A stretch of DNA of 64,000 bases. It comes from Sphingobacterium griseoflavum (GTDB lineage: Bacteria > Bacteroidota > Bacteroidia > Sphingobacteriales > Sphingobacteriaceae). The position numbers were made by a program, and so were the translations under genes. Positions 21,029 to 24,562 of the stretch are shown in pieces. Below the pieces are notes generated by a model. That model worked only from the letters and a program-made list of their open reading frames with translations. It did no database searches and was not told the DNA's origin. Positions within the stretch are counted from its first letter, which is position 1; every line of letters starts with the position of its first letter. The stretch is taken from assembly GCF_014653155.1 (NCBI RefSeq), contig NZ_BNAF01000003.1, positions 1 to 64,000 on the forward strand, written 5' to 3'.

Positions 21029-23146
21029 TTAATTTAATCCACGTTTTTTCATCAAAAATTCTGGATCAGGATCTTTGCCACGAAAGGTTCTGTACATTTG
21101 AGCCGGGTTACCCGTACCACCCTTTTCCAAAATATTCCGCCTAAACGAAGCCGCTGTCCCAGCATCGTACAATGACTTTTCTTTAAATGCTGCAAAAGCA
21201 TCGGCATCTAACACCTCTGACCAGATATAGGCATAATATCCTGCAGAATATCCTCCAGAGAAAATATGTTTGAAATAAGTACTTCTGTATCGTGGAATAA
21301 TTGCATCCATCAATCCTATTTTTTGCATTGATGTTGCTTCGAAAGCATTTACATCATCAGGAATTGGTTTGCTAGCCGCGTGGTAATCCAAATCCAATAG
21401 CGATGCCGCCACATATTCTACGGTTGCAAAACCTTGATCGAACGTACCCGCTCTCTCCATTTTTGCAATTAGGGAGTCTGGAATTGCTTCTTTGGTTTTA
21501 TAATGTTTTGCATATGATTTTAGCACTTCGGGATCTGCTGCCCAATTTTCCATGATTTGCGAAGGAAGTTCGACAAAATCACGCGGTACAGCGGTTCCAG
21601 CCAAGCTTCTGTAGCGCACATTGGACAGTAGTCCATGCAATGCGTGACCAAACTCATGAAACAAAGTCGTCGCTTCATCAAAAGTCAGCAACGCGGGTTC
21701 ATCGCCAACAGGTTTGGTAAAATTACAAACAATAGAGATCACAGGAGCGATGCGCTTACCATTTTTTGTATACTGTGCACGGTATGATGTCATCCAAGCT
21801 CCACTATTTTTTGATTTGCGGGGGAAAAAGTCGGCATAGAGCAAACCCAAGTGTGATCCATCCCTATCTTTTACCTCATAAACCTCGACTTCGGGGTGAT
21901 AAGTGGGCACATTGTTCAAAGCAATAAATGTTAAGCCATAAAGGTTATTGGCTGTTGCAAATGCTCCCTCCCGCACAGCTGGCAGGCTAAAATAAGGTTT
22001 TATCTGCGCTTCGTCCAATGCGAATCTCTCCATGCGGATCTTCTCCTGATAGTAGCGCCAATCATACGGTGCCACCGCAAACGTATCTTTATCTGCAACA
22101 ATTTGCTTTTGAATATCAGCAGCTTCTTCCTTGGCCTTCTTCAAAGCTGGTGTCCATATCTTGTTCAGCAAGGCATACACATTCGCTGGGCTTTCTGCCA
22201 TAGACTCTTCCAAAACATAGGCCGCATGAGACGCATAACCCAACAGCTTTGCCCTTTCGAGACGAAGATTGGCTATCTTTACCAGAACGCTTTTGTTATC
22301 GTGATCATTGCCGTTATTCCCCTGTTGCTGATAGGCTTCCCAAATCTGTTTGCGGAGCAATCGATTATCCGCGTATTGGAGGAACGGCATAACGGACGGG
22401 TTCTGTAGGGTAAATACCCACTTCCCTTCTTTTCCCCTCGCTTTGGCTTCGTCAGCTGCCGCGGCTTTCAGCCCTGCGGGCAAGCCCGCTAAATCGGCTT
22501 CCTTATCCACAACAAGTTCGAACGCGTTGTTCTCTGCCAACGCATTCTGCCCAAATTGTACCGCTAGCACCGAAAGCTCCGTATTGATTTCTTTTAACTT
22601 CTCTTTCTGCTTCACGGGAAGGTTTGCGCCTGCACGAACAAAATTCTTGAACGTTTCTTCCAGCAGCATGCCATCCTCCGCATCCAGACCAAGTGTACCT
22701 TTCTTTTCATAAACGCTTTTTACACGGGCAAAAAGCTTCTCGTTCAAAAATATTTCGTCTCTATGCGCAGAGAGTACAGGAGCGATTTCCTTGTCGATGG
22801 CCTGCAGGGAGTCATTGGTGTTTGCCCCGCTAACGTTACGAAAGACCGTATTTACGCTGTTTAATAATGTGCCAGCATCTTCCAAGGCAACGATCGTATT
22901 TTTAAAATCAGGTTCTTCCGAATTGTTAACAATGGAGTCTATTTCGAGCTTATGTTGGGCTAAAGCTGCGTGAAAGGCCGGCCGGAAGTGCTCATCTTTT
23001 ATCTTATCAAAAGGAGGAACCTCGAACGGCGTATCATAATGGAGGAGTAACGGATTGTCAGTTTGTGGGGTTTTATCTTGATCTTGACAGCCCACTACAA
23101 CCGCTGCCACAACCAAACAAAGGGGTAAGAATCTTTTTTTACTCAT
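21029..23146 (-). CDS. dcp: M3 family metallopeptidase, Dcp-like lipoprotein
   Basis: A 705-residue zinc peptidase of the thimet oligopeptidase family. The Dcp branch removes C-terminal dipeptides. The zinc motif is H497-E-F-G-H501 in FHEFGHALHGLL, with the distal ligand region VELPSQIMENW following. TSMQKIGLMDAIIPRYRSTYFKHIFSGGYSAGYYAYIWSE is the substrate-gating region typical of Dcp. The N-terminus is a lipoprotein signal ending VVVGC (C20), so the enzyme is placed on the membrane facing the periplasm and likely trims imported or envelope peptides. A -7 box is at 23168-23175. Confidence 0.92.
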   Translation of the reverse strand: MSKKRFLPLCLVVAAVVVGCQDQDKTPQTDNPLLLHYDTPFEVPPFDKIKDEHFRPAFHAALAQHKLEIDSIVNNSEEPDFKNTIVALEDAGTLLNSVNTVFRNVSGANTNDSLQAIDKEIAPVLSAHRDEIFLNEKLFARVKSVYEKKGTLGLDAEDGMLLEETFKNFVRAGANLPVKQKEKLKEINTELSVLAVQFGQNALAENNAFELVVDKEADLAGLPAGLKAAAADEAKARGKEGKWVFTLQNPSVMPFLQYADNRLLRKQIWEAYQQQGNNGNDHDNKSVLVKIANLRLERAKLLGYASHAAYVLEESMAESPANVYALLNKIWTPALKKAKEEAADIQKQIVADKDTFAVAPYDWRYYQEKIRMERFALDEAQIKPYFSLPAVREGAFATANNLYGLTFIALNNVPTYHPEVEVYEVKDRDGSHLGLLYADFFPRKSKNSGAWMTSYRAQYTKNGKRIAPVISIVCNFTKPVGDEPALLTFDEATTLFHEFGHALHGLLSNVRYRSLAGTAVPRDFVELPSQIMENWAADPEVLKSYAKHYKTKEAIPDSLIAKMERAGTFDQGFATVEYVAASLLDLDYHAASKPIPDDVNAFEATSMQKIGLMDAIIPRYRSTYFKHIFSGGYSAGYYAYIWSEVLDADAFAAFKEKSLYDAGTAASFRRNILEKGGTGNPAQMYRTFRGKDPDPEFLMKKRGLN

Positions 23147-23175: not shown

Positions 23176-23336
23176 AGGAATAGCTGTTGGTAAACATAAA
23201 ACTTAGAGAGATTCCAATTTTGGGCATCAATTGACGTTTGTAACAGCCATAAAAGAAAGCTTGGCGTTATTTTTGAAAAGGGTGTTCTGTAAACTTGCTT
23301 AACAGGGATACATATAACGCATTAAAATTAAATAAT

Positions 23337-24101
23337 ATGATTGGAATAGTAGGAGGTGTCGGCCCACTTGCTGGACTGGACATCGTGCGAAAAGTGATTG
23401 ACGAAACCATAGCGAACACCGATCGGGATCAGCTGCCGATTTTGCTTCATTCGCATCCGCATCGTATCAGTAATCCCACAGACTATTTGTTGGGAAAAGA
23501 AGCGCATAATCCTGCTTATGCTATCGTGGAAATTATCTCGGAATTGGAAAATGCTGGCGCAACTGTCGTAGCGATACCTTCGCATACGGCGCATGCAAAA
23601 CGCGTCTTTGAGGTAATAGAACAAGAACTTGAACGCAAGAACAGTGCGGTAAAACTGGTACACCTAATCGAAGAGACCGCTTTGTTTATCAAGAGAAAAT
23701 ATGGCCATACCCGAGTTGGGATACTTGCAGGGACGGATTTAAAAAATAATGGTCTGTATCACCATATTTTGGCGAGCCATCATCTCGAAGTGATAGAACC
23801 TGATGAAGAGCTACAAGATAAAATACACACAGCTATCCACGACAGCACATATGGTATCCGTGCTGTATCTTCTCCCGTTAGCAATAGGGCGCGCAGCGAA
23901 ATCATTGAGTCAATTGCAGCATTGAAAGAAAAAGGGGCGCAGTCCATTATTTTGGGAGATTCGTCCCTCCCAGACGCCATACCGGAAAAAGAAAGCGATG
24001 GCTTGCCTATCATCGACCCGATACGCATCCTGGCACGCGCCTTGGTGTCGGCATTGGCGCCATCGAAGCTGCAAGACGACGTGGCTAGTTCCCGATTGTA
24101 A
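23337..24101 (+). CDS. Aspartate/glutamate racemase-fold protein lacking both catalytic cysteines
   Basis: A 254-residue cytosolic protein. It opens with GIVGGVGPLAGLDIVRKV, the family start, and has GATVVAIPSHTAHAKRVFE at about 74-92 and GAQSIILGDSSLPDAIPE at about 200-217. In active racemases these read IPCNTAHA and ILGCTE, each with a catalytic cysteine. Here the positions hold S82 and D208. No frameshift or stop is seen and the rest of the fold is intact, so it is not a decayed gene. It may catalyse a cysteine-independent reaction, bind an amino acid, or be inactive. ATG 23337 matches the family start; the frame is open to 23295. It is convergent with the Rieske gene. Confidence 0.85.
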   Translation: MIGIVGGVGPLAGLDIVRKVIDETIANTDRDQLPILLHSHPHRISNPTDYLLGKEAHNPAYAIVEIISELENAGATVVAIPSHTAHAKRVFEVIEQELERKNSAVKLVHLIEETALFIKRKYGHTRVGILAGTDLKNNGLYHHILASHHLEVIEPDEELQDKIHTAIHDSTYGIRAVSSPVSNRARSEIIESIAALKEKGAQSIILGDSSLPDAIPEKESDGLPIIDPIRILARALVSALAPSKLQDDVASSRL

Positions 24102-24125: not shown

Positions 24126-24461
24126 TTAGAAAAGCCTCTTCCACCAAGACTTGTGAATACCGATGTAAAGCTTCCCGCTATCTACTTTCAGGGGATAGGT
24201 AGGAATGAAATTACCCTGTCCTGCGTCGCCCCTACCGGTGGTTAGATCAAATCGATGTCGGTGAACGGGACAGACAATTTTCTTCGCTTCGCACCAACCC
24301 TGTGCTAAATCCGCGCCAGCATGGGGACAACGATTGCCAACAGCAAACAACTCTCCATCTTGCTTGACCAAGCAGATGACTTTGCCCGCTACCTTAAGCC
24401 TTTGCATTCCGCCTTCTGCCACCTGAACGTCGGATACCAAGTGCCAATCTTCTTTATCCAT
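24126..24461 (-). CDS. Rieske 2Fe-2S protein (ferredoxin-like)
   Basis: A 110-residue single-domain protein. The cluster ligands are C45-P-H47 in NRCPHAGADLAQG and C64-P-V-H67 in IVCPVHRHRFDLTTG, exactly the Rieske CxH...CxxH arrangement. The short length and lack of a signal suggest a soluble electron carrier similar to NirD or dioxygenase ferredoxins. No oxygenase is nearby. ATG 24461 starts just before the domain; the frame continues upstream to 24557 through the typA terminator, which would be an unlikely coding stretch. C-terminus: KSWWKRLF. Confidence 0.88.
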   Translation of the reverse strand: MDKEDWHLVSDVQVAEGGMQRLKVAGKVICLVKQDGELFAVGNRCPHAGADLAQGWCEAKKIVCPVHRHRFDLTTGRGDAGQGNFIPTYPLKVDSGKLYIGIHKSWWKRLF

Positions 24462-24511
24462 ATTCGCTAAATATAAGGAGAATAGCTTAAGAGCCAAATA
24501 GCTAAATAAAA

Positions 24512-24538
24512 ACGGGCTTTCGAATATCGAAAGCCCGT
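24512..24538 (-). terminator. Terminator of typA
   Basis: A perfect 11-bp stem (ACGGGCTTTCG and complement) with loop AATAT, followed on the minus strand by TTTTTATTT. It lies 24 nt past the typA stop. Confidence 0.9.
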
Positions 24539-24562
24539 CGTCCATATGATTGCTCAAATTTC

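Follow-up and report, generated by a model that had tools for sequence, protein, structure and literature searches.

Two-base, cofactor-independent racemases of the Asp/Glu racemase superfamily use two catalytic cysteines, and departures from this rule are found in the literature. EcL-DER is an L-Asp/Glu-specific racemase with a Thr83/Cys197 pair and MMP0739 is a predicted Cys/Thr racemase; the two are examples of one-cysteine racemases (PMC12661438 and PMC8142540). Arylmalonate decarboxylase belongs to the same superfamily and performs a changed chemistry with one cysteine: it carries Gly74/Cys188, in which the second cysteine remains and donates the proton (PMC4996985). HisR is a racemase with a different fold, and its turnover fell strongly when one Cys was replaced by Ser (PMC11602996). 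The departures from the two-cysteine rule that were found (EcL-DER, MMP0739, and arylmalonate decarboxylase) all keep one thiol. A literature search on dyad-less racemases and selected bacterial pseudoenzymes returned no selected racemase without both cysteines, and a search on racemases in the genus returned no description of the case presented here.

The gene in question is located at 23337..24101 (+) of the window, which is the whole 64,000-nucleotide stretch of Sphingobacterium griseoflavum DNA that was analyzed. Its translation yields 254 residues followed by a single terminal stop. The program-made list of open reading frames places the start 14 codons earlier at a TTG; the ATG at 23337 is the likely start, since the relatives open with the identical MIGIVGG. 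The protein matches the superfamily profile PF01177 over its full length (Pfam, residues 5-235, profile positions 1-210 of 211, E 2.2e-24), scoring 86.9 bits against a curated cut-off of 31, and it also exceeds the cut-off of the amino acid racemase model TIGR00035 (112.3 bits compared to 93.1). The best NCBIfam match is the cysteate racemase model CuyB (NF052483), for which the protein stays below the equivalog cut-off with 138.3 bits against 190. A relative from the genus with both cysteines (G113) passes this model with 197.4 bits, CuyB being the annotation name of the model that does not establish the substrate of the two-cysteine proteins of the genus. The nearest solved structures by sequence are archaeal aspartate racemases (1jfl and 2dx7, E 5e-24 and 1e-23), and 1jfl is also the top Foldseek match of an AlphaFold2 model of the protein (TM 0.74/0.82). 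The model, which was built from a two-row alignment and reaches a mean pLDDT of 69.4 and a pTM of 0.70, takes on the two-domain α/β fold at moderate confidence, to which sequence similarity contributes. The pLDDT falls below 50 in the loops 7-13, 84-86, and 170-179, so the pocket geometry is unreadable from the model. Identity with the cell-wall glutamate racemase was rejected, as the genome has a separate MurI-type match. A scan of viral sequences returned no relatives of the protein, and a scan of the genome contigs returned a single distant one.

The protein belongs to the same fold family as the aspartate racemase from Pyrococcus horikoshii (PhAspR, structures 1jfl and 2dx7) and the TIGR00035 proteins, with which it aligns over the full length, and differs from PhAspR in having no cysteine at either catalytic position. 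In a phmmer alignment, Ser82 (TCG, 23580..23582, +) takes the first catalytic-cysteine position opposite PhAspR position 82, which is an Ala in 2dx7, and Asp208 (GAT, 23958..23960, +) takes the second at Cys194, with the adjacent Thr-Glu replaced by Ser-Ser. Columns 82 and 208 are both cysteine in all 26 rows of the genus alignment that retain the pair. The whole protein contains no cysteine, which rules out a displaced cysteine that takes over catalysis. The pair of Ser and Asp is therefore neither that of a two-base racemase, nor the one-cysteine type of EcL-DER, which retains the second cysteine, nor the Gly-then-Cys arrangement of arylmalonate decarboxylase. Further substitutions accompany the loss. 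His83 (CAT, 23583..23585, +) replaces the Asn beside the first cysteine and is present in 7/8 rows without the second cysteine, compared to 2/26 rows with both cysteines and 0/26 rows with Ser82 and Cys208. Pro47 (CCC, 23475..23477, +) and Arg175 (CGT, 23859..23861, +) lie opposite PhAspR Arg48 and Lys164, which we take to be substrate-binding residues. The Arg48 column holds Arg in 24/26 two-cysteine rows and Pro in both proteins with the Ser/Asp pair; the Lys164 column holds Lys in 26/26 two-cysteine rows, Arg in the window protein, and Gln in its closest relative, from genome G006.

The losses concentrate in the pocket. Sixty-eight columns were scored as conserved, with the same residue in at least 25 of the 26 two-cysteine rows, and eight of these count as pocket columns, being at most two residues away from either cysteine or in the Lys164 column. 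The window protein alters 12/68 conserved columns and the G006 protein 13/68. Five of the eight pocket columns compared to seven of the other 60 are altered in the window protein (p 0.003), and seven of eight compared to six of 60 in G006 (p 1e-5). The enrichment persists when columns 82 and 208 are excluded (3/6 compared to 7/60, p 0.04, in the window; 5/6 compared to 6/60, p 0.0003, in G006). In G028, a relative with Cys82/Gly208, one of eight pocket columns is altered and all other pocket residues are kept. The scaffold is retained, including the GGxGP start (mostly), N58-P59, P81, A85-H86, E113, Y172-G173, and D227-P228-x-R230. Ser82, His83, and Asp208 are identical in the two Ser/Asp proteins, and their pocket neighbors differ (T84/A84, R175/Q175, and S209-S210/A209-D210 in the window and G006, respectively). 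A sequence-only reading of the window had described an intact 254-residue Asp/Glu racemase fold with Ser82 and Asp208 in place of the cysteines, and translation, PF01177, and the alignments bear this out. It had also considered that other cysteines might occupy the catalytic positions, of which the cysteine-free protein has none.

The distribution of the dyad, written here as the residues at positions 82/208, was followed through 93 genomes of the genus, of which 62 have a match and 31 have no detectable copy. Sixty-four loci were found and 63 aligned, with the first half of a double protein from G089, which has 19% identity, omitted, and 60 orthologue-like rows were counted after three distant rows (G030, G089, and a second copy in G115) had been set aside. 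The double protein is a separate observation: at L086:7983-9380 (-) and L066 (G089), a 465-residue protein harbors two tandem racemase domains, visible as two PF01177 stretches, of which the second half scores above the CuyB cut-off and the first shares about 20% identity with the window protein. The 60 rows divide into 26 C/C, 26 S/C, three C/G (G028, G072, and G083), and two S/D (the window and G006), with one row each of C/E (G001), Y/G (G108), and N/S (G079). The C/G racemases are seen at L070, L072, and L073 and carry GGT, GGC, or GGA as codon 208. Their Cys82/Gly208 pair is the mirror image of Gly74/Cys188 in arylmalonate decarboxylase, and the S/C rows are comparable to EcL-DER, in which the first cysteine is naturally replaced by a hydroxyl residue. 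A 22-row S/C clade (L083, L084, and others) with Ser82/Cys208 has Cys-Ala-Glu replacing Cys-Thr-Glu, lies at a different place adjoining a pirin-like gene, and shows a dN/dS of about 0.07, as tight as in C/C; its members are candidate one-cysteine racemases.

In a tree calculated without the catalytic columns, the window and G006 are sisters (support 96/94), and G006 is the nearest row by tree path. The five-row group of S/D and C/G is supported at 97/86, and support is weak (84/66) once C/E and Y/G are included in a group of seven rows. C/C is taken as ancestral because the six rows from other genera all carry this pair, the deep root with these genera being weak (78/85) and accompanied by a program warning of long branches. 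The split between C/C and not-C/C requires four changes on the tree. Codons and tree together indicate that the second cysteine was probably lost first via glycine and the first cysteine later, since TGY to GGY to GAY takes one change at each step. The sequence-only reading had raised the questions of whether a clade with the Ser/Asp pair exists and whether the closest homologues would expose an error; the two-row clade answers the former, and G006 carries the same pair. The loss in one gene is thus real, and what that reading did not foresee is that the gene forms one end of a dyad series within the genus.

The locus offers a context for these losses. The left neighbor at 21029..23146 (-) is a conserved gene for what we take, from reading its sequence, to be an M3-type peptidase, and the right neighbor at 24126..24557 (-) encodes a Rieske [2Fe-2S] protein (ORF list and profile). 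A strong terminator-like hairpin at 24539-24511 lies inside the listed Rieske frame (24126-24557, -) and is the likely end of the typA transcript; because it lies within the frame, the listed Rieske start is probably too far upstream. In operon-carrying C/C genomes, the same M3 and Rieske/typA genes bound a larger block, and genes for an S58 peptidase and a serine hydrolase stand between the M3 gene and the racemase. The order in many C/C genomes is an S58 (DmpA-type) aminopeptidase, a serine hydrolase of the class-C β-lactamase fold, and then the racemase, often followed on its 3′ side by ecotin and an aldehyde dehydrogenase before the Rieske gene. The arrangement S58-serine hydrolase-racemase-ecotin(-aldehyde dehydrogenase) can be seen at L071:4534-8133 (G113) and also at L068, L074, and L077. 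By its gene content, this operon looks like a pathway for scavenging D-amino acids or β-peptides; a literature search for a link between S58 peptidases and racemases found no description of the operon.

At the window locus, the operon partners are lost, and S58 and ecotin have no match in the window's genome. The S58 gene stands beside the racemase in 18/26 C/C rows compared to 0/34 non-C/C rows, where neighbors were sought over 5-8 kb or as far as the contig end in most rows and in 1.5-kb flanks in nine S/C rows, whose genomes have no S58 anywhere. S58 also occurs near the racemase in three rows from other genera, and three non-C/C genomes (G001, G108, and G096) encode an S58 elsewhere that is 40 to 60% identical to the operon proteins. 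The C/C racemases of G010, G063, and G091 (L080, L050, and L096) have serine hydrolase remnants on their 5′ side, a snapshot of operon decay. In a phylogenetic test that set the loss of partners against that of the cysteines, four independent pairs gave a median p of 0.25, with the traits running the same way in 2.7 pairs on average and opposite never; four pairs are too few to reach significance. A connection between the two losses is consequently no more than suggestive. Partner loss seems to permit rather than force cysteine loss, because eight C/C rows have no S58 alongside. The sequence-only reading had named both flanking genes correctly and found that they do not reveal the pathway, which is true for a reason it did not anticipate, namely that the partner genes have been lost.

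A conserved promoter-like element, TTGGCnnnATTTTTGAA, is positioned at 23261..23277 (+), 76 nt 5′ of the start codon. It occurs once in the 64-kb window and never in 100 shuffles. With at most one mismatch it is present in 23/60 rows, comprising 9/18 C/C rows with S58, 2/8 C/C rows without S58, 4/26 S/C rows (a four-row clade), and 8/8 rows without the second cysteine; it is missing from the 22-row S/C clade, whose racemase gene sits elsewhere. In 8/9 of the S58 rows, the element lies within an open frame of 366-378 codons and forms the 3′-terminal codons of the serine hydrolase gene. Its translation is LLALFLN in G113 (L071:6719-6735), and it is also found at L068 8811-8828 (-). In the remaining rows, the hydrolase coding sequence is gone and the element is kept, mostly 71-82 nt 5′ of the racemase. 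The element looks like the racemase's own promoter inside the neighbor's coding end, and the racemase gene is predicted to be still expressed, because the element survives the loss of the hydrolase gene. It is presumably compatible with both a sigma-54 pattern and the Bacteroidota -7 motif TAnnTTTG, and a simple sigma-70 scan is not suited to it; sigma-54 is encoded in the window's genome. A regulon was rejected, as the genome has one exact match and three one-mismatch matches, the latter in no clear promoter position on a rough look.

Selection on the gene was estimated with a purpose-written codon model, both pairwise and on a tree. Comparison of the window with G006 gives 62% identity for the racemase, 61% for the Rieske protein, 78% for truA, and 83% for the M3 peptidase, with typA at 99%, kbl at 94%, and an ABC transporter at 93%. 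The pairwise dN/dS of the racemase is 0.123 at a synonymous divergence near saturation (t 2.2), and a value of 1 is rejected (test statistic 120); the other genes of the pair range from 0.003 to 0.102. Fast evolution is not special to the racemase, because the Rieske gene shows similar divergence and has not undergone a loss of this kind. The two S/D genes differ at 60% of third and 18% of second codon positions. On the tree, which was fitted to 42 of the 63 rows (three distant, three C/C, and 15 close S/C rows were omitted), four branch classes beat one (2ΔlnL 28.3, three parameters). The fitted dN/dS is 0.057 for C/C with S58 (a class that also includes mixed inner branches), 0.087 for C/C without S58, 0.069 for S/C, 0.074 for C/G, 0.162 for S/D, and 0.148 for the rest. 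For S/D, a value of 1 is rejected in a test that re-fitted the S/D branches alone (2ΔlnL 126.5), and 0.057 is rejected too (profile lnL -21587.2 compared to -21577.2). In neutral simulations, the frame stayed open in 3/4000 runs with 0.46 changes per site and in 0/4000 with 0.7, while the fitted S/D end branches measure 0.84 and 0.89; the reading frame is open in 8/8 rows without the second cysteine. A dead pseudogene is excluded with dN/dS far below 1. Constraint on the S/D gene is relaxed about two- to three-fold relative to the operon C/C genes and clearly present. The S/C and C/G genes may well encode working one-thiol enzymes, because their constraint is about as tight as in C/C.

The explanation that we hold, with somewhat better than even confidence, is that the window gene encodes an orphaned, racemase-derived pseudoenzyme that is under relaxed selection and probably serves a function other than racemization. 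The catalytic motif is lost, and purifying selection acts after the loss (0.12 pairwise, 0.16 on the tree), provided that the cysteine pair was already lost in the ancestor of the window and G006 genes. Frame, scaffold, and promoter-like element are kept under purifying selection after the Ser/Asp genes split. The substrate racemized by the ancestor would have been an amino acid liberated from D- or β-linked peptides, and with the loss of the peptidases, this racemization would no longer have been needed. The second cysteine would then have changed by the glycine route described above, followed by the first from TGC to TCC. The present protein would perform no two-thiol racemization and may be kept for a noncatalytic role of its fold, for example, binding of a ligand or a partner protein. 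The sequence-only reading had suggested a changed chemistry, a ligand-binding role, or a regulatory function for an otherwise intact gene. A changed or noncatalytic role, in any of these three forms, gains from the low dN/dS, the S/D clade, and the vanished active-site residues; the intact gene is indeed selected, with a relaxation that had not been expected.

The main rival, which we consider unlikely, is decay in progress, in which the gene lost its purpose with its partners and a weak leftover constraint, for example against misfolding, acts before the gene vanishes. The absence of a detectable copy from 31/93 genomes fits this course, as does the climb of dN/dS from the operon C/C genes through those without S58 to S/D. 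The two- to three-fold higher value of the S/D genes and the active-site residues that still change between them speak against the pseudoenzyme and fit slow decay as well. Against decay stand the strong rejection of a dN/dS of 1, the excess of third- over second-position differences, the eight open frames out of eight, and the retained upstream element. A sequencing or assembly error would account for a pair of substitutions seen in one assembly, and its probability is close to nil, because G006 has the same pair with a different Ser codon (TCC instead of TCG, with GAT as codon 208 in both); moreover, three related genomes lack the second cysteine alone, and the losses follow the tree.

Retained catalysis can be imagined in two forms. 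Ser82, His83, and Asp208, or the acidic or glycine residue of a sister together with His83, might constitute a new active or metal site of a lyase, hydrolase, or decarboxylase, which we regard as rather improbable. The concentration of His83 in rows without the second cysteine and its sharing, with Ser82 and Asp208, by both S/D proteins point in this direction, and arylmalonate decarboxylase gives a precedent for changed chemistry (PMC4996985), with the difference that it keeps a thiol and the S/D protein is thiol-free. However, the residues surrounding the trio differ between the S/D proteins, unlike a tuned active site, which makes new chemistry less likely than decay; His83, which two C/C rows carry as well, may be an earlier unrelated change, and the low-confidence loops 84-86 and 170-179 leave the pocket geometry undefined. 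That the protein represents a new kind of enzyme, with a thiol-free Ser82/His83/Asp208 pocket for a new reaction or metal, is likewise quite improbable; if true, a cofactor-independent racemase would have been converted stepwise within one genus, with the C/G, C/E, Y/G, and N/S sisters as intermediates, His83 being already present in 7 of 8 cases. Still less probable is an amino-acid racemase or epimerase that uses Ser82 and Asp208 as its two acid/base groups. The score above the TIGR00035 cut-off and the existence of EcL-DER and MMP0739 argue for it, but both of these keep one cysteine, the Cys-to-Ser change greatly lowered turnover in HisR, and the Arg48 and Lys164 positions of PhAspR are Pro and Arg/Gln.

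For the pseudoenzyme that we favor, the profile-based name "aspartate racemase" would be a mis-annotation of the window gene. Within one genus, a thiol-free end state occurs alongside the intact enzyme and each of the two one-cysteine states, in the window clade at an orthologous locus where the loss of the operon partners can be seen as well. The genus thereby offers a natural series for studying whether the fold of a racemase persists for a role other than racemization, and the sequence in which partner genes, catalytic residues, and substrate-binding residues disappear.
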